Assembly: GCA_001595385.3 (NCBI GenBank)
Contig: LVEI03000001.1
Span: forward strand, 2,361,344-2,425,343
DNA from: Deltaproteobacteria bacterium GWC2_55_46
GTDB taxonomy: Bacteria; Desulfobacterota; GWC2-55-46
Reading direction: 5' to 3'
Length of the DNA: 64,000 nt
Both the position numbers and the translations under genes were made by a program. The notes beneath the pieces were generated by a model. That model saw nothing but the letters and a program-made list of their open reading frames with translations, was not told where the DNA came from and made no database searches. Positions 30,016 through 39,799 of this stretch are shown piece by piece; position 1 is the first letter of the stretch, and each line of letters opens with the position of its first letter.

Positions 30016-31308
30016 ATGCATAAGAGCTCCGTTTCTGTGCTTGACGAATTCATGATTTCCAGCTCTGGCGGCAAGTGGAAGCCCGTTGCCGCCGGTCTTG
30101 CGCTTGTTGCCTTCGCTATCGCGTTCAGGTTTTATTCTGGCTCCAGCCTTGAAAGCGCCATGGTCTCAGGTGTTTTCACGGCCCTGGCCGTGCTCGTTAC
30201 CGTGATCTCGTGCAGGCGCCCTGGCGTAAAGCTCTTTGAGCTTGGGGATGAAGAGCTTATAAGGGAACTGGCCGAAGGGACGGAGCACTATACCGCCAGG
30301 AGGCAGCGGCTTCAGAGGTTTTTCAGCTCCCAGCGTGACCTCAACATCCTGACCAGCGGCCACCTTGACGAAGTGATAAGGCATACCGAACAGGCGGCAG
30401 GCCGGATAATAAACAAGTCGCGGGAAATAGACGCCTCGATGTGCATGATGCAGAAGACCATAGAGGACCTCCAGGGGCAGAGCGAGTCGCTGGCGGCCGC
30501 TTCCAGCGAGACGATAAGGCGTAACGAGACCAACATGGCAAGCCTCAAGGGATACATAGAAAAGCGCAGGGCTGACATAGATGATGACTACAAGACGGTG
30601 CTGGCGCTCGCCCAGGAGGCCAGGTCGATGACCGGCCTTGTCGACCTCCTGAAGGAGATAAGCGACCAGACCAACCTCCTGGCCCTGAACGCGGCCATCG
30701 AGGCGGCCAGGGCCGGCGAGCACGGCAGGGGCTTTGCCATAGTGGCGGACGAGGTGAGAAAGCTCTCAAAGCATTCTGATGAGGCCGCCGGCAAGATAGG
30801 CAAGGCCATGGTAAAGATGGCCGACGAGATAGAGCACAAGTTCGCTGTGAAGCTCAACCAGGGCAGGAACAACGATGAGTCCAGCCAGCTTGTCGAGCTT
30901 CAGTCCCAGCTCTCCAGGCTCGGGGAGGGTTACCGTAAGCTCGACAGCCTCAACATGCAGATACTCCAGCAGGTGAGCGAGAGCGGAGCCCAGGTGGCCG
31001 GAGAGGTGCTCGAACTTATCTCCGGGGTCCAGTTCCAGGACATAGTCCGCCAGCAGATTGAGCTTGTCATAAAGACCATAACCGAAGGCGGCGAGCATAT
31101 GAAGGCATTGGAGGGCTGCCTTGAGGACAAGTGCCTGTGCAATACCGGGGTCTGCAGGATAAGCGAGTTCGGCATAGAGGACGTGCACAAGCATTATGTG
31201 ATGGAGAACCAGAGGTTCACGCACGATTCAGTGGCCGATTCGACAGGCGGGGGCGCCCGGCCCCAGGCTGTAAGGCCGGCGGCGCAAAGCGACGTAACGT
31301 TCTTTTAA
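30016..31308 (+). CDS. Methyl-accepting chemotaxis protein-like signalling protein without sensor domain
   Basis: 430 residues. Two close hydrophobic helices (about 22-40 and 46-66) leave almost no periplasmic part, so sensing must be cytoplasmic or intramembrane. The signalling hairpin tip [20 protein letters not shown] (about 214-233) and [15 protein letters not shown] are canonical. Beyond it, [16 protein letters not shown] (336-351) resembles a segment seen in atypical receptors and in CheZ. A Cys cluster follows: Cys368, 373, 375 and 380 in [13 protein letters not shown]. First gene of the operon, 15 bp before cheY. Redox or metal sensing through the Cys cluster is speculation. Confidence 0.8.
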
Positions 31309-31323: not shown

Positions 31324-31692
31324 ATGGCTAAGACTGTAATGGTTGTTGATGACTCGGTTTCAATAAGGCAGGTGATGAACCTGACCCTTAAAAGGGCCGG
31401 GTACGATGTCGTAGAGGCGTGCGACGGATCGGACGCGCTCGGGAAGCTCGATGGCCAGAGGGTAAGCCTCATCGTATGCGACGTGAACATGCCTAACATG
31501 GACGGCATCTCGTTCCTTAAATCTCTGAAGGAAAGGCAGAGCCACAGGTTCACTCCCGTGATAATGCTCACCACCGAGTCGCAGGAATCCAAAAAGCAGG
31601 AAGGCAAGGCCGCCGGGGCAAAGGCATGGGTCGTGAAGCCCTTCAAGCCGGAGCAGATGCTCGAAGCCGTAGCCAAACTGATACTGCCCTGA
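31324..31692 (+). CDS. cheY: CheY-type single-domain response regulator
   Basis: 122-residue receiver domain. The acid pocket is VVDDS (Asp9, Asp10), the phospho-acceptor is Asp53 in VCDVNMPNMDG, the switch Thr lies in IMLTTES and Lys in VVKPFKP. Phosphorylated by the CheA encoded in the same operon, it would act on the motor or other output. RBS GGAGGAG precedes the ATG. Located between the MCP-like and STAS genes. Confidence 0.93.
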   Translation: MAKTVMVVDDSVSIRQVMNLTLKRAGYDVVEACDGSDALGKLDGQRVSLIVCDVNMPNMDGISFLKSLKERQSHRFTPVIMLTTESQESKKQEGKAAGAKAWVVKPFKPEQMLEAVAKLILP

Positions 31693-31701
31693 GGAGGCGA
31701 T

Positions 31702-32013
31702 ATGCCGCTGTACGTTAGAACATCCGGTGAAGCATGCCGCGTGAGGATAGATGGCGAGATGAACATCTATAACGCGGGCGAGATAAAAGAAGGGCTTATC
31801 AAGGCGGTCGCGGACGCGCGCGATATAGCGCTCGACCTTTCTGGTGTTTCCGAGATCGATACCGCGGGCCTTCAGGTGCTGCTGCTGGCGCGCAGGGAAG
31901 CGCAAAGGTGCGAGAAACCGTTCAGGATGGCCCTGGCAAGCCCCCAGGTCGAGGCTGTCATAGGCCTTTTCGACCTCAGGGACTTCTTCGGAGCGGAAAG
32001 GGAGAGCGCATAG
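31702..32013 (+). CDS. STAS-domain protein
   Basis: 103-residue STAS fold like anti-sigma-factor antagonists. The usual phosphorylation loop reads SEIDTAGLQVLLLARREA, with Thr rather than Ser in the D-S/T-x-G motif. STAS genes directly before cheA are common in environmental chemosensory operons, but their role there is poorly defined. Its stop codon is immediately followed by the cheA ATG (no gap), which suggests coupled translation. Confidence 0.85.
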   Translation: MPLYVRTSGEACRVRIDGEMNIYNAGEIKEGLIKAVADARDIALDLSGVSEIDTAGLQVLLLARREAQRCEKPFRMALASPQVEAVIGLFDLRDFFGAERESA

Positions 32014-34173
32014 ATGGAACTCGATCTCGGACAGGTAAGGAATACCTTCATAGCCGAAAGCCAGGACCTCCTTCGTGAGATGGAGAGCGCTCTGCTTGAG
32101 CTGGAAAGCGACCCTGCCGACCAGAACGCCCTGAACGCGCTATTCAGGGCGGCTCATACGATAAAGGGCTCGTCCGGGGTGCTTGGCATCGGGACAGTTG
32201 AGAGGTTCACGCACCTTGCCGAGAACCTTCTGGATAAGATGAGGGCAGGGGAGATAAAGGCGTCACCTGGCAACGTTGAGCTCCTCCTGCAGTGCAGGGA
32301 CCACATCGCCACGCTGATAGACCGCGCCTCCGGCGATACGGAAGAGCTCCCCGCGGAAGTGCTCAGGCAGGATAGCGAACTTTCGGAAAGGCTCAACGCC
32401 TGCCTTGGGGCAGGGGATTCGGGGCATCAGGCGGCGGCCCAGGAACAGGTGAGCGAAGCGGGACACGGGCCCAGCTCCAATACCGACGCGTGGCATATCT
32501 CGATAAGGTTCGGGAAAGACGTGCTGAGAGGCGGCATGGACCCGATATCGTTCATCTCGTATCTGGCGAAGATGGGCGAGATCACGAGCATCACTACACT
32601 TTTATGCTCGATGCCGGCGCCGGCTGAGATGGACCATGAGAGTTGCTACCTTGGCTTCGAGATAGACATTAAAAGCGACTTCGACAAACAGTCGCTTTAC
32701 GACGTCTTCGAGTTTGTGCGCGAGGACAGTTTCATACATATACTTCCCCCCTGCAGCAGGATAGCCTCGTATATAGAGCTCATAAACAATCAGCCTGAGA
32801 ATACGCTCCTTCTGGGCGAGATACTCGTTAAAGGCGGCGCGCTCACGAGAGAAGAGCTCGACTCGGCCCTCAAAATGCAGAACGAAAGGCCGGGATCGAC
32901 GGACAGGCCCCGCATAGGCGAGATACTCGTAAACGAGGGCTCCACTTACCACGAGATAATAGACGCGGCTCTTGAGAAGCAGAAGAGGAACAAGGTGGTG
33001 AGCGCGAGGGAGGCCGCAACCATCAGGATAGACGCCGCCAAGCTCGATTCCCTGATGAACCTCGTAGGCGAGCTCGTCATCGCCGGCGCCAGCATAGACC
33101 AGCACGCGCAGAGGATAGCCGATACGTCCATGCAGGAGTCGGCCTCCATGATGCTCCGCCTTGTCGAGGAGATCAGGGGGAGCGCCATGAAGGTCAGGAT
33201 GGTGCCAATAGGCGATACATTCAGCCGCTTCAGAAGGGTCGTGAGGGACATAAGCCGCGACCTCGGCAAGGAGATAGAACTTGTGATATCCGGCGCGGAC
33301 ACGGAGCTCGACAAGAACGTGATCGAGAAGATAAGCGACCCGCTAATGCACCTGGTAAGGAACGCCGCGGACCACGGCATTGAAACGCCTCAGGAAAGAG
33401 GGGAGCGTGGCAAGAAGCCGTCCGGGACAATATGCCTTAACGCGTGTCATGACGCCGGGAGCATAGTAATAGAGGTCATCGATGACGGAAAGGGGTTCGA
33501 TAGGGAGAAGATAGCCGCCAAGGCCGCCTCCCTCGGGCTCATCACCCCCGGCCAGCAGCTCACAGATTCCGAGGTATATAAGCTCATATTCGAGCCAGGC
33601 TTCTCGACCGCCGCCGAGGTCACGAAGTTCTCCGGCAGGGGGGTCGGCATGGACGTCGTAAGGAAGAACATAGAGGCCCTCCGTGGCACTATAGACATGG
33701 AGAGCAGCCTGGACGCAGGGACTACTGTCAGGATCCGCCTCCCGCTTACAATGGCGATAATAGACGGCTTCATGGTCGGCATCGGGGATTCCCCTTACAT
33801 AATCCCGCTCGACATGGTCGTCGAGTGCATGGAGCTTTCGGAAGAGGACAGAAAGGCAGCTGGAAAGAGGAACTACATAAACCTCCGTGGCGAGGTTCTG
33901 CCATTCGTAAGGCTACGCGAGTTTTTTAACCAGTCCGGGGATTCGGCGAAGTACGAGAATATCGTCATAGTGCAGTACTCAGGGCACAAGATCGGGCTTG
34001 TGGTCGATGAGCTTTTTGGCGAGGTGCAAACGGTCATCAAGTCCCTTGGCAGGGCCTACAGGGAAGTCAAAGGCATCTCCGGGGCGACGATACTCGGCAA
34101 CGGCAGGGTGGCGCTCATACTCGATGTGCCAAGGCTGATCCAATCCATAGAGGCGCTGCGGCTTTCAGCCTGA
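32014..34173 (+). CDS. cheA: Chemotaxis histidine kinase CheA with MshEN-like insert
   Basis: 719 residues. The Hpt domain has phospho-accepting His48 in AAHTIKGSS. A region at about 158-255 (WHISIRFGKDVLRGG) resembles the P2-like domain of many CheA proteins. Residues 266-289 and 300-323 are two 24-residue copies, LLGEILVKGGALTREELD... and RIGEILVNEGSTYHEIID..., each ending in Gln; this is the spacing and pattern of the MshEN c-di-GMP-binding motif. The dimerisation, HATPase (LVRNAADHGIETP, DDGKGFD, GRGVGMDVVR) and CheW-like regulatory domains follow. It should phosphorylate CheY and CheB of this operon. Confidence 0.92.
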   Translation: MELDLGQVRNTFIAESQDLLREMESALLELESDPADQNALNALFRAAHTIKGSSGVLGIGTVERFTHLAENLLDKMRAGEIKASPGNVELLLQCRDHIATLIDRASGDTEELPAEVLRQDSELSERLNACLGAGDSGHQAAAQEQVSEAGHGPSSNTDAWHISIRFGKDVLRGGMDPISFISYLAKMGEITSITTLLCSMPAPAEMDHESCYLGFEIDIKSDFDKQSLYDVFEFVREDSFIHILPPCSRIASYIELINNQPENTLLLGEILVKGGALTREELDSALKMQNERPGSTDRPRIGEILVNEGSTYHEIIDAALEKQKRNKVVSAREAATIRIDAAKLDSLMNLVGELVIAGASIDQHAQRIADTSMQESASMMLRLVEEIRGSAMKVRMVPIGDTFSRFRRVVRDISRDLGKEIELVISGADTELDKNVIEKISDPLMHLVRNAADHGIETPQERGERGKKPSGTICLNACHDAGSIVIEVIDDGKGFDREKIAAKAASLGLITPGQQLTDSEVYKLIFEPGFSTAAEVTKFSGRGVGMDVVRKNIEALRGTIDMESSLDAGTTVRIRLPLTMAIIDGFMVGIGDSPYIIPLDMVVECMELSEEDRKAAGKRNYINLRGEVLPFVRLREFFNQSGDSAKYENIVIVQYSGHKIGLVVDELFGEVQTVIKSLGRAYREVKGISGATILGNGRVALILDVPRLIQSIEALRLSA

Positions 34174-34274: not shown

Positions 34275-35948
34275 ATGGGGTTTTTCAGGGATATGAAAAC
34301 TAAGTCGAAGCTCTTCGTGAGCTTTGCGGTAGTGGTGGTCATTATCGTGGGATTTGGGGCGCTTAGCGTGAACCGCATCACCGATACCAGGGACAGCATG
34401 CATTCCATGTATGCCAACAGGCTCGTCCCGGCCATCGACCTGGGTGAGATAGGTCGGAACCTGTACGGCATAGCCAGGACGGCGCTGCGTATCTCGATGG
34501 AAAAGGACCAGGGCAAGAGGCAGGAATTCTTCAACAACACTGAGAGCAGCAAAAAAGAGATAGAGAGGCTTATTGAGAAGATATCAGCCGTGGAGATGGC
34601 CCCTGAGGAGAGGCAGGTCCTGGATGAGTTCAGGGGCGCGTGGCAGCAGTATATCGCTGTTACTATGGATACGTATAACTTCGCGGTACAGGGCAAGCTT
34701 GAGGAGGCTAAAAACAACGCCTTTGTCGTAGTGCCGCCCAAGTTCAAGGTCACAGACGAAAAGCTCAGGATGCTTATAGAGATTCAGGACAAGGTCGGCC
34801 AGGAGCTTTACAATAAGGCAAGCAGCAACGCTGTTTTTACGAGGAACACGGTGATCGCCGCTGCCGTGCTGGCCATAGCCGTCGCCGTAACCTTTGTCTT
34901 TTTGCTTACCGGTATCATAGCCAGGCCTATCGTAGAGGTGACCTCTCTTGCCAACAGGCTCTCCCAGGGCGATCTTACGGTTGACGTGCACGTCAGGGGC
35001 AGAGACGAGATAGGCCAGCTTACGGAAGCCTTCAGGAATATGGTCGTGAAGCTCCGCGAGGTTGTCACCAACGTAAGGGCGGTCTCTGATAACGTTGCCT
35101 CCGGCGCGCAGGAGCTCTCAGGCGGCGCCCACCAGATATCCCAGGGCGCAACCGAGCAGGCGGCATCTATCGAAGAGACTTCTTCTTCCATGGAGCAGAT
35201 GACCGCGAACATAAGGCAGAACTCTGATAATGCCCAGCAGACCGAGAAGATAGCCCATAAGTCCGCCGCTGACGCGAAGGAGAGCGGTCAGGCGGTGACC
35301 GAGACGGTTAGCGCGATGAAGGAGATAGCCTCGAAGATATCGATAATCGAGGAGATAGCCAGGCAGACGAACCTTTTGGCCTTGAACGCCGCTATCGAGG
35401 CCGCCAGGGCCGGCGAGCACGGCAAGGGCTTCGCGGTCGTTGCCTCCGAGGTGAGAAAGCTCGCCGAGAGGAGCCAGACAGCCGCCGGGGAGATCAGTAA
35501 CCTTTCCGCGTCGAGCGTTGGGATAGCTGAAAAGGCCGGCGAGATGCTCGCCAAGCTTGTGCCGGACATACAGAAGACCTCTGAGCTGGTGCAGGAGATA
35601 ACGGCCGCGAGCGCCGAGCAGAACTCAGGCGCGGAGCAGATAAACAAGGCGTTGCAGCAGCTCGACCAGGTCATCCAGCAGAACGCGAGCGGCGCCGAGG
35701 AGCTTGCGTCTACCTCGGAGGAGCTCTCCTCGCAGTCCGAGCAGCTCCAGACGACGATAGCGTTTTTCAAGATAGCCGAATCGGAAGGCGCGAGGAAGGT
35801 AGTGCCGATGGTGAAGGCGAGGCCCCAGGCCAGGGTGAGGGCCCATCAGGCGCACGCCAGGCCGGTGAAGGCTGTGGCCAACGGCGGCGTCAAGATAGAC
35901 CTCGGCGCTGGCAGGGACGACGAAGACGGCGAGTTCGTCAAATACTGA
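34275..35948 (+). CDS. Methyl-accepting chemotaxis protein
   Basis: 557 residues. TM1 about 13-33, a four-helix-bundle-type periplasmic sensor (about 34-190), TM2 about 193-217, HAMP, and a long cytoplasmic coiled coil. The hairpin tip is [20 protein letters not shown] and the flank [18 protein letters not shown]. The C-terminus is basic and lacks an NWETF-type CheR/CheB tether. The ligand is unknown. About 100 bp separate it from cheA; a secondary promoter there is possible. cheW follows after 15 bp. Confidence 0.92.
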
Positions 35949-35963
35949 GCGGGAGGCATGAGT

Positions 35964-36452
35964 ATGGCTGAAGTATCCGAGAGCATGCAGTACCTCACGT
36001 TCAGGTTGGACGACGAGGTCTTCGCAACCGACATAACGCAGGTAAGGGAGGTCCTTGATTTTACCGCGGTGACCAGGGTTCCGAGGACGCCTGATTTCAT
36101 GCGTGGGGTTATAAACCTTCGGGGCAGCGTGGTGCCTGTGGTGGACATGCGCCTCAAGTTCGGGATGAGCAGGACCGAGCAGACTGTTAACACATGCATC
36201 GTCATAGTTGAGATAAAGGTAGACGGCGAGGCACTGGTGCTTGGCGCGCTGGCCGACTCTGTCCAGGAGGTCATAGAGCTTGAGCCTTCCCAGATAGAGC
36301 CTGCGCCGAGGATAGGGACAAGGCTCGATACCGGGTTCATAAAGGGCATGGGCAGGAAGGACGAGCAGTTCATAATCATCCTGGATATCGACAGGATATT
36401 CTCGGCGGATGAGCTGGCAGACTTTGGCGGCACGACCGCCCAGAGCGCGTAA
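35964..36452 (+). CDS. cheW: Chemotaxis coupling protein CheW
   Basis: 162 residues. The CheW fold is recognisable by YLTFRLDDEVFATDITQVREV, the conserved FMRGVINLRGSVVPVVDMR and FIKGMGRKDEQFIIILDIDR. It links CheA to receptors. The ATG at 35964 is chosen because GGGAGG lies 7 bp upstream; an ATG two codons earlier is too close to that RBS. Confidence 0.93.
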   Translation: MAEVSESMQYLTFRLDDEVFATDITQVREVLDFTAVTRVPRTPDFMRGVINLRGSVVPVVDMRLKFGMSRTEQTVNTCIVIVEIKVDGEALVLGALADSVQEVIELEPSQIEPAPRIGTRLDTGFIKGMGRKDEQFIIILDIDRIFSADELADFGGTTAQSA

Positions 36453-36463
36453 CGGAATAACTT

Positions 36464-37342
36464 ATGGAATGCGCGGCAGACCTTCATGGTCATGAACTCT
36501 TTCAGGCTCCGGGCCTCAAAAGGCTCTCTGACGATGATTTCCAGCGCTTAAGCTCTTTTATCCATAAAGAGCTCGGTATAAAGATGCCGCCGGCGAAAAA
36601 GGCGCTCCTGGAATCGAGGCTTCAGAAGCGCCTGCGCGCCCTCGGGCTAAAGGGCTTTACAGAGTACTGCGACCTGCTTTTCAGCCCTGAGGGGCTCTCT
36701 CGCGAGCTGGTCCAGATGCTCGACCTGGTCACCACCAACAAGACCGATTTTTTCAGGGAGTCGCATCATTTTGATTTTCTCTCCCGCACCGTCCTGCCGG
36801 TGATCATCTCCGAGACGGGCCCTTTCGTCTCGGTCTGGAGCGCGGGGTGCTCAACAGGCGAGGAACCCTATACCATATCGATGGTCATGAGCGATTTCGC
36901 CTCAAGCCAACCTTCGATCGGCCTCGATTTCTCGGTCCTGGCTACCGATATTTCCACGAGGGTCCTTGAATATGCCTGCAAAGGCGTCTACAAGGAGGAG
37001 CGGATAGCGCCTGTGCCTGAGGCCGTGAAAAGGCGGTATTTCCTGAGGAGCAAAGACAGCTCCAGAGAGCTTGTGAGGGTCTGTCCTGAGATAAGGGGGA
37101 AGGCCAGGTTCACGAGGCTCAATCTGATGGACGAGACCTTTCCCATCGAGGGAAGGCTCGACATCATTTTCTGCAGGAACGTTATAATCTATTTCAACAA
37201 GGAGACGCAGGAGCGGCTCTTCAGCAAATTCTGTGAATACCTAAGGCCCGGAGGCTATCTTTTTCTGGGCCATTCAGAGACGCTCTCAGGGCTTGGGCTG
37301 CCGCTCAAGAAGGTGGCGGCGTCCGTTTACGTAAGATACTGA
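36464..37342 (+). CDS. cheR: Chemotaxis protein methyltransferase CheR
   Basis: 292 residues. N-terminal helical domain (FIHKELGIKMPPAKKALLESR), then the SAM-dependent methyltransferase domain with SAGCSTGEEPYTI, LATDISTRVLE and the FCRNVIIYF motif. It methylates glutamates of receptors for adaptation, opposed by the CheB encoded at 38726. No C-terminal TPR extension. Confidence 0.93.
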   Translation: MECAADLHGHELFQAPGLKRLSDDDFQRLSSFIHKELGIKMPPAKKALLESRLQKRLRALGLKGFTEYCDLLFSPEGLSRELVQMLDLVTTNKTDFFRESHHFDFLSRTVLPVIISETGPFVSVWSAGCSTGEEPYTISMVMSDFASSQPSIGLDFSVLATDISTRVLEYACKGVYKEERIAPVPEAVKRRYFLRSKDSSRELVRVCPEIRGKARFTRLNLMDETFPIEGRLDIIFCRNVIIYFNKETQERLFSKFCEYLRPGGYLFLGHSETLSGLGLPLKKVAASVYVRY

Positions 37343-37357
37343 TTCAAGGAGGAATAG

Positions 37358-38254
37358 ATGGAAAACCTCTCGGATAAGGAGCTTCTGGAGGTAATAAGGC
37401 AGAGGCTCGAGGCCAAGGACAGGGCCTATGAGGAACTAAGGGATTTGACCGGCAAGCTCGAGGATCTCAACACCAAGCTGGTTGAATCCGAGAGGGTCAA
37501 GTCGAGCTTCCTTTCGAATATCAGAAACGAGATCAACAACCCGCTCACCTCTGTGCTTGCCATCTCTGAGCTTATTATCTCCGGTGATGACGAGCCCGAC
37601 TACGCGACAGTCAGGTCCATAATAGGGCTTATACACAAAGAGGCGTTCAACCTGAACTTCCAGCTGAGGAACATCTTCGCCGCGGCCGAGCTCGAGGCCG
37701 GCGAGGCTGTCCCGGGTTTTTCCGGCGTGGACGTCGAATCTATCCTGAACGACGTTGCCGCCACCTTTGCGCATAGGGCTTCTGAGAGGAAGGTCGCCGT
37801 AAGGGTCATGCCGGGCGAGCTCTCCGGGGGTGTTTTCAGGACCGACGCGGAGATGCTGCACAGGGCTGTCTCAAACCTTCTTTCCAACGCCATCGAGTAC
37901 AGTCCTGAGGGCGGCGCGGTGGTGATAGATGTGGCGAGAGAAGAGGGTTGCCTCAGTATCTCGGTAGCCGACCAGGGGCCCGGGATAGAGCGCTCCAAGC
38001 ACAGCTCTATTTTTTCGAGGTTCAAACAGCTTGACAGCGGCTCGACCAAGCGCCACTGCGGACACGGCCTGGGCTTGAGCATCGTAAAGGCCACGGCAGA
38101 TCTCCTCGGTGGTTCCATCGAGGTCGAAAGCGACATCGGAGAAGGCGCGCGTTTTGTCTTAAGGGTGCCTGAGGCGGACGCTGACATGTCAGCCGGGGCG
38201 ATATCGATGGACGGGGCCGAGTTCTTTATCCCAGCCGAGGCCGAAAGGTTCTGA
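37358..38254 (+). CDS. Histidine-kinase-like protein with Asn in place of the phospho-accepting His
   Basis: 298 residues, cytoplasmic. An N-terminal coiled coil (about 10-48) leads into a HisKA-type dimerisation helix. In its H-box, where kinases have SHE-x-x-x-P-L, this protein reads SNIRNEINNPLTSV, so Asn57 replaces His. The HATPase domain is complete: N-box SNLLSNAIEYSPEG, DQGPGIE and GHGLGLSIVKATADLLGG. It may be an ATP-binding regulator rather than a phosphodonor, or it may phosphorylate another residue. It sits between cheR and cheD in the operon, with AAGGAGG before its ATG, and is 2 bp from cheD. Confidence 0.85.
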   Translation: MENLSDKELLEVIRQRLEAKDRAYEELRDLTGKLEDLNTKLVESERVKSSFLSNIRNEINNPLTSVLAISELIISGDDEPDYATVRSIIGLIHKEAFNLNFQLRNIFAAAELEAGEAVPGFSGVDVESILNDVAATFAHRASERKVAVRVMPGELSGGVFRTDAEMLHRAVSNLLSNAIEYSPEGGAVVIDVAREEGCLSISVADQGPGIERSKHSSIFSRFKQLDSGSTKRHCGHGLGLSIVKATADLLGGSIEVESDIGEGARFVLRVPEADADMSAGAISMDGAEFFIPAEAERF

Positions 38255-38256
38255 CA

Positions 38257-38742
38257 TTGCTTCAGGCAGCCACCATACAGCCGAATTATTACCTTTATCC
38301 AGGCATGCTCTTTGCCGAGCCAGGGAGCCACAGCGTCACCACCGTCCTCGGCTCCTGCGTCTCGGTCTGCGTCTGGGACCCGTGTGTATGCATGGGGGGG
38401 ATCAACCATTATCTCCTGCCGTTCTGGAACGGAGACGGCCTCAAGGTGCCGAGGTACGGCAATATCGCCATCCCGATGCTTATAGAAAGGCTCCTTGATC
38501 TCGGGTGCCGCAAGGCCCGGATGAAGGCGAAGGTCTTCGGGGGAGGGAAGGTGCTTGAGAACTCCGGCGTAATGAACATCGGCGAGAAAAATATCCTGTT
38601 CGCGCAGAACGCCCTTCAGGAAGCCGGCATACCGATAATAGGCATGGACGTAGGAGGCACCCAGGGCAGGAAGATAACCTTCCTTACCGCCACCGGAGAG
38701 GTCTACGTCAGGAAGATAGGCAGGAATGACGACAAACGGTAA
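38257..38742 (+). CDS. cheD: Chemoreceptor glutamine deamidase CheD
   Basis: 161 residues. The CheD signature is clear: [13 protein letters not shown] with the catalytic Cys, then [11 protein letters not shown] with the catalytic His, and the late [10 protein letters not shown] and [10 protein letters not shown]. It deamidates receptor glutamines and can modulate CheC-type phosphatases. The best start is TTG at 38257, just after the previous stop. Its end overlaps cheB by 17 bp. Confidence 0.92.
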
Positions 38743-39799
38743 GATAAAGGTCCTCGTAGTCGACGATTCAGCGGTAGTGCGCAAGGTGCTCGCGAAGATA
38801 ATATCAGCCGAGCCTGACCTCGAGGTCATAGGCACGGCCGCCGACCCGTATCTGGCCGCTGAGAAGATCGCCCATGAGCTTCCGGACGTAATGACCCTCG
38901 ACGTCGAGATGCCTCGCATGGACGGGATCACTTTTTTGCAGAGGATAATGGAGCAGCACCCTATAGCCTCGGTCGTGATATCGAGCCTCGCTGAAAGCGG
39001 CTCGGAGACCGCGCACAAGGCCTTGGAGTGCGGGGCCGTAGAGATAATCCAGAAGCCGCAGCTCGGCACAAGGGAGTACCTCGAGGAATCTGGCATCATC
39101 ATATGCGACGCGATAAGGGCGGCGGCCATGGCAAAGCTCAGGAAAGCGCACGCGCCGCTGCAGATAACACGCAAGCTCAACGCTGACGCCGTGCTCGCGA
39201 AGACGAAGCCGACGAAGGCGATGCTCCGCACGACAGAGAAGGTCATCGTGCTCGGCGCTTCGACCGGCGGGACTGAAGCTATAAGCGAGTTTCTCATGTC
39301 CATGCCCCTTGATTCGCCTGGTATCGTCATCGTCCAGCACATGCCAGAGCAGTTCACCGCCTCTTTCGCGAAAAGGCTCAATGACCAATGCGCCATCACC
39401 GTAAAAGAGGCGCAGGACGACGACACCGTCATAAGGGGCAGGGCGCTTATCGCGCCGGGGAACAGGCACATGCTCCTTAAAAGGAGCGGCGCGCGCTATT
39501 ATGTCGAGATAAAAGACGGCCCGCTTGTCTCCAGGCACAGGCCTTCTGTAGACGTCCTTTTCCGCTCCGCGGCCATGTACGCCGGGAAGAACGCCGTCGG
39601 CGTGATACTTACCGGCATGGGCGACGATGGGGCCAAAGGCATGCTCGAGATGAAGGACGCCGGCGCATTCAACATAGCGCAGGACGAGCAGACCTCTGTG
39701 GTCTACGGCATGCCGAAAGAGGCTGTAAAGGCCGGGGCCGTTGACTGCGTGCTTCCGCTCGGTGAGATAGCCGCGCGGGCCCTCAGGGAATGCGCTTGA
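38726..39799 (+). CDS. cheB: Chemotaxis protein-glutamate methylesterase CheB
   Basis: 357 residues. The receiver domain has phospho-acceptor Asp59 in [13 protein letters not shown] linker leads into the methylesterase domain with the catalytic Ser in [10 protein letters not shown], His in [10 protein letters not shown] and Asp in LTGMGDDGA. It demethylates receptors when phosphorylated by CheA. Last gene of the operon. The region after it (39800-39860) shows no clear terminator. Confidence 0.93.

Follow-up and report, generated by a model that had tools for sequence, protein, structure and literature searches.

A predicted c-di-GMP-binding MshEN_N domain next to the dimerisation domain of a chemosensory CheA kinase

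A CheA with an extra domain in a che operon

The window, that is, the whole stretch of 64,000 nucleotides that was analysed, carries a che operon with the gene order MCP, CheY, STAS, CheA, MCP, CheW, CheR, histidine kinase, CheD and CheB:

30016..31308, + strand: chemoreceptor (MCP), upstream of cheA (PF00015)
31324..31692, + strand: CheY-like receiver (PF00072)
31702..32013, + strand: single STAS-domain protein (PF01740)
32014..34173, + strand: cheA, 719 aa (open reading frame and Pfam)
34275..35948, + strand: chemoreceptor with a 4HB sensor and HAMP
35958..36452, + strand: CheW (PF01584)
36464..37342, + strand: CheR (PF01739)
37358..38254, + strand: small histidine kinase (HisKA-HATPase)
38257..38742, + strand: CheD (PF03975)
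38726..39799, + strand: CheB (PF01339)

The cheA product has the Hpt, P3, HATPase and CheW-like domains of a CheA, in that order and within a che operon. Its complete layout is Hpt, P2-like region, extra helix, MshEN_N, P3, P4 and P5, and the corresponding features are the following:

32035..32307, + strand: Hpt (P1), residues 8-98 (PF01627, E 4.8e-18)
32482..32742, + strand: P2-like region, about residues 157-243, between P1 and the insert (conserved in orthologues)
32755..32787, + strand: extra helix, residues 248-258, S[RK]xxxYxELI (alignment, AlphaFold helix)
32809..32880, + strand: MshEN motif I, residues 266-289, LLGEILVKGGALTREELDSALKMQ (sequence, NF053729)
32881..32910, + strand: spacer between the motifs, residues 290-299, NERPGSTDRP, 10 residues
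32911..32982, + strand: MshEN motif II, residues 300-323, RIGEILVNEGSTYHEIIDAALEKQ (sequence, NF053729)
32950..33018, + strand: long final helix of MshEN, residues 313-335, extending via the linker to the P3 start (AlphaFold model)
33016..33195, + strand: H-kinase_dim (P3), residues 335-394 (PF02895, E 2.4e-13)
33337..33750, + strand: HATPase_c (P4), residues 442-579 (PF02518)
33766..34149, + strand: CheW-like P5, residues 585-712 (PF01584)

The P2-like region has no Pfam match, and its label denotes position only. In the alignment of this CheA lineage, the extra helix is seen only together with the MshEN insert. The same genome encodes 12 GGDEF, 12 PilZ and 7 PF05157 matches, and by this gene content the host is able to make and read c-di-GMP; the GGDEF search of the genome gave no match inside the che operon. 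The flagellar protein FliG is encoded far from the operon.

Assignment of the insert to MshEN_N

An earlier note, made from the sequence alone, had pointed to two 24-residue motifs in this CheA, 10 residues apart. Their positions, lengths and coordinates are those listed above. The pattern given with them named the right residues but spaced them wrongly: written as x9-(L/I)-x3-(A)-L it sums to 28 positions, the real spacing being G10-x6-(L/I)17-x2-A20-L21-x2-Q24, plus G3. Position 1 is L266 in motif I and R300 in motif II, and position 3 is G268 and G302, as expected of motifs that begin with R, K or L and carry this glycine. Position 2 is the usual leucine in motif I (L267) and isoleucine in motif II (I301), as in 26 of 58 CheA domains compared. 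Positions 17, 21 and 24 are L282, L286 and Q289 in motif I and I316, L320 and Q323 in motif II. The tandem pair is unique within the six frames of the window; the segment is conserved across the orthologues that have it and cleanly absent from the others.

The proposal that these are MshE-type repeats was borne out by a significant profile match and by an MshEN-like predicted fold. The profile NF053729 (the NCBIfam c-di-GMP_motif, MshE-related, 53 positions, cut-off 38 bits) finds both halves and matches the whole CheA with an E-value of 1.1e-8 and 34.7 bits in hmmscan, a score that lies below the cut-off because the 10-residue spacer splits the match in two; a CheA fragment scores 40.2 bits, and the two stretches summed in a genome search reach 42.8 bits. 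Searched against PDB sequences, profiles of the CheA insert retrieved PilF (E 2.5e-27), PilB (1e-11) and MshE (5htl, 4.8e-8). PF05157 (MshEN, 90 positions) matches neither the window CheA nor any of 15 diverse CheA fusions, and the insert is therefore not filed under that family. In ATPases of the same genome, the PF05157 match adjoins the NF053729 match and does not cover the NF053729 stretch; CheA has the N-terminal half of MshEN only.

Elsewhere, an 827-residue open frame of genome G000 (C1:1541201-1541356) passes the NF053729 cut-off and is not among the PF05157 matches. Two proteins of about 375 residues (L063 and L064) carry six MshEN motifs in a row without an ATPase and end in a different C-terminal part.

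Structure prediction with AlphaFold, compared with known structures by Foldseek and VIA, gave a segment of four helices in MshEN order. With a first, short model (pLDDT 70), the best eight Foldseek matches were all GSPII/MshEN structures, with probabilities of 0.77-1.00 and modest E-values of 0.3-1.5. In a second model, built from a more diverse alignment, the MshEN part reached a pLDDT of 83-90, and VIA superposed it on 8pfa and 5htl with Z scores of 8.8-8.9 and a distance of 1.4 Å over 57-58 residues, this distance being to the c-di-GMP-bound MshE and PilF structures. The ends of the structurally aligned ranges pair Leu266 with Arg9 of MshE and Gln323 with Gln61. Taken alone, a Z near 9 for a helical bundle would be weak evidence; unrelated bundles come to a Z of 8.7 when compared with the P3 portion of the longer model. 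Foldseek with the longer model returned CheA P3 first and no MshEN structure among the first 50, so that the fold match rests on Foldseek with the short model together with VIA. From sequence profiles and these models, the CheA insert (about residues 264-326) is an MshEN_N domain, the half of MshEN that is of the c-di-GMP-binding type.

Conservation of the ligand-contacting residues

In MshE and PilF (PMC5013675, PMC11731258), the ligand is contacted by the backbone amides of positions 2-4 and by Gln24 of both motifs, and is also stacked by position 1 and by Leu clusters. MshEN_N alone is reported in PMC5013675 to bind c-di-GMP with a KD of 0.35 μM, and MshEN_C, which CheA lacks, is therefore dispensable for binding. 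Conservation was assessed on 58 CheA domains less than 70% identical to one another. The glycine at position 3 is present in 58/58 for both motifs, and Gln24 in all 58 for motif II and in 51 for motif I; the majority of the exposed positions, by contrast, are free to vary. In smaller alignments of 15 and 34 sequences, which are without the sequences that deviate at the motif I glutamine, the two glycines and two glutamines are among the few invariant MshEN columns.

Two reservations raised in the earlier note, the leucine at position 1 of motif I and the length of the spacer, lost force. The extended consensus (R/K/L)LG admits leucine at position 1 (PMC11731258), and the K167L substitution in PilF GSPII-B tightened binding from 6 to 2 nM (PMC11731258); Leu266 is for these reasons no defect. 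As to the spacer, its length ranges from 1 to 21 residues in those homologous CheA domains in which the residues that contact the ligand are mostly or fully retained. The extremes are a single residue in L112, L114-L121 and L123, and 21 residues in L018. At the two cluster positions examined in PilF GSPII-A (17 and 21 of motif II), the cost of isoleucine instead of leucine was only 2.4-fold (PMC12002112). Two departures from the consensus remain in motif II of the window CheA and speak against binding: Ile301 at position 2, and Ser310/Thr311 at positions 11 and 12 of the core.

Distribution and evolution of the fusion

A survey of CheA proteins for the same insert, proposed in the earlier note, revealed a recurrent fusion. 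A search of genome contigs with the single protein yielded 21 orthologues. Orthologues with the domain occur in relatives of the window genome, Nitrospira, Sulfuricella, Thauera, Pseudothauera and Vibrio hannami; beta- and gammaproteobacteria are represented, and two plasmids carry the fusion as well. These plasmids, p1 of Aeromonas sp. BC14 (L069) and one of Pseudomonas sp. HR96 (L070), carry nearly the same operon, with STAS and MshEN-CheA. Because the operon can be plasmid-borne, the complete system may be transferred in one piece. A match on a megaplasmid of Deferribacter desulfuricans (H3, L071) was rejected as a fusion: it is a P3-only match to a CheA without MshEN. That protein has an apparent C-terminal receiver domain, and its record names it CheW.

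Prevalence was counted within the host's own phylum with a model that extends from motif I to the P3 end, at a threshold of E 1e-20 or better. This MshEN-P3 model matched in 137 of the 297 sampled genomes and in 100 of the 198 genera, nearly all matches being full-length; any CheA at all, judged by a P3 match, was found in 219 of these genomes. Upon inspection, 35 of 36 lower-ranked matches had both motifs, some with altered contact residues, and one was degenerate; four CheA proteins without a model match had no motifs. Within the CheA proteins compared, the domain is always the last element before P3, the end of motif II lying 14 to 36 residues from the P3 signature.

In a kinase-core tree, 55 of 56 fusions fall into one well-supported group of 66 rows; this group also contains nine CheA proteins that lack the domain and two that have half a domain. 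L062 is the one fusion outside. At least five changes are needed on this tree. Four CheA orthologues (L016, L019, L021 and L026) lack both the extra helix and MshEN; in front of P3 they keep a short stub with KQ at its end, which looks like the tail of motif II, as though the domain had been excised. The alignment gives the impression that, in Nitrospirota CheA, this KQ stub sits where motif II would end, and domain losses are likely there on such sequence grounds. The half domains are those of L048 (G037), with motif II only, and L045 (G024), with motif I only. Since these six proteins lost all or half of it, the domain is dispensable in places.

A predicted c-di-GMP switch and its alternatives

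The reading that I consider reasonably probable, on sequence and modelling, is that the insert is an MshEN_N domain that binds c-di-GMP and thereby controls the CheA kinase, be it upwards or downwards. The two copies of the MshE/PilF motif would form a four-helix bundle placed in the P2-P3 linker, most likely with one c-di-GMP bound between them. Leu266 and Arg300 would stack on the guanines, the backbone of Gly268 and Gly302 would hold the Hoogsteen edges, and Gln289 and Gln323 the ribose-phosphate. In the second model (a monomer without ligand), the bundle's final helix reaches the P3 start, and it would continue into the P3 dimerisation helices. Loading or emptying of the site would then alter the P2-P3 linker and with it either how readily P1 reaches P4 or how the kinase is coupled to the receptor array, such that the cellular c-di-GMP level would set the gain of the chemosensory pathway at a point before CheY and CheB. 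A ligand-dependent rearrangement has been reported for helix 1 of PilF GSPII-B (Neissner et al.); since the last helix of the modelled CheA bundle reaches P3, a rearrangement of this kind could, by analogy, pass to the P2-P3 linker.

That the motifs might be a chance resemblance within a helical linker draws on the commonness of short leucine-rich motifs and on the missing PF05157 match. This explanation is refuted: among 200,000 shuffled versions of the CheA, 43 contained a single motif and none the tandem, the profile E-values range from 1e-8 to 1e-27, and the fusion recurs across genomes. The domain could instead have kept the MshEN fold without binding a nucleotide and act as a stiff linker or as a site where other proteins dock. 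PilF GSPII-A (PMC12002112) and XpsE (PMC5013675) keep the fold without binding c-di-GMP; the window CheA has polar residues (Ser310/Thr311) at core positions 11-12 of motif II; and the Foldseek matches include the Xanthomonas PilB-PilZ complex, in which the MshEN-like N-terminus of PilB docks PilZ. However, in GSPII-A the two glutamines are replaced by His and Arg and one glycine by Ala (PMC12002112), and XpsE carries G11V, G40L and Q61V (PMC5013675), whereas the residues lost in these known non-binders are those that the CheA domains retain, the glycines and the motif II glutamine being invariant and the motif I glutamine present in 51 of 58. A non-binding role of this kind is unlikely.

The identity and the role of the ligand could also differ from those proposed. 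Some deltaproteobacteria, such as Geobacter, which are relatives of the host, make cGAMP, and the domain might sense another dinucleotide, for example 3',3'-cGAMP. MshEN does bind cGAMP, but weakly, with a KD of 330 μM given in a review, and Wang et al. (PMC5013675) likewise describe VcMshEN as binding cGAMP weakly and c-di-AMP not at all; as the contact residues of CheA are moreover the c-di-GMP set, I regard a different dinucleotide as very improbable. Somewhat less improbable, yet still doubtful, is that c-di-GMP is a constitutive structural cofactor, the kinase being unaffected by physiological changes in its level. Very tight binding is to be expected from a leucine at position 1, and Neissner et al. 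raise constitutive binding for PilF GSPII-B. Against this, position 1 varies among the CheA domains (R, K, P or L), which suggests tuned affinities.

Relation to known systems and implications

The MshEN_N domain of Vibrio cholerae MshE (5htl; PMC5013675) resembles the CheA insert in its two 24-residue motifs, its four-helix bundle and its contact residues. It differs in a spacer of 5 residues versus 10 in CheA; motif I starts with Arg there and with Leu in CheA; and MshE has MshEN_C and an ATPase, whereas CheA has neither. Also close are GSPII-B and GSPII-C of Thermus thermophilus PilF (8pdk, 8pe0, 6f8l; PMC11731258, PMC12002112); by sequence, the third GSPII domain of PilF gives the best match. 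The leucine of GSPII-B K167L occupies the same place as Leu266 of CheA, and LGE is common to both, but PilF is a traffic ATPase and its GSPII domains are full ones with a C-terminal subdomain.

Wang et al. 2016 list the chemotaxis kinase CheA in one phrase among MshEN-associated proteins (PMC5013675), so this kind of fusion was already known; the portion of their main text at hand describes no CheA survey and no binding or kinase test of CheA. No binding or kinase data for any MshEN-type CheA were found in the openly accessible literature searched. New here are the count of how widespread the fusion is, the finding that CheA proteins conserve the binding residues, and the failure of Pfam to see the domain: all 15 CheA fusions tested lack it in Pfam annotation, while NF053729 of NCBIfam detects it in every one.

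Whether a bacterium moves or settles is governed by chemotaxis-type signalling as well as by c-di-GMP, and the connections known between the two lie at motors, CheY-like proteins and adaptor proteins. The Cle proteins (PMC5677366) are a case where c-di-GMP meets chemotaxis on CheY-like proteins and not on the kinase; with MapZ it acts on a PilZ adaptor protein, again not inside the kinase. The fusion occurs in close to half of the genomes sampled from the phylum, which suggests, on sequence grounds, that c-di-GMP acts directly on the kinase. Whether a large class of CheA proteins, found in nearly half of these sampled genomes and with the operon in other phyla, are direct c-di-GMP receptors, acting through a P3-coupled bundle and forming a node missed by Pfam, is a proposal that I hold to be about evenly balanced. 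If it is true, annotation would change too, and the two networks would be directly linked at CheA itself, in many bacteria.
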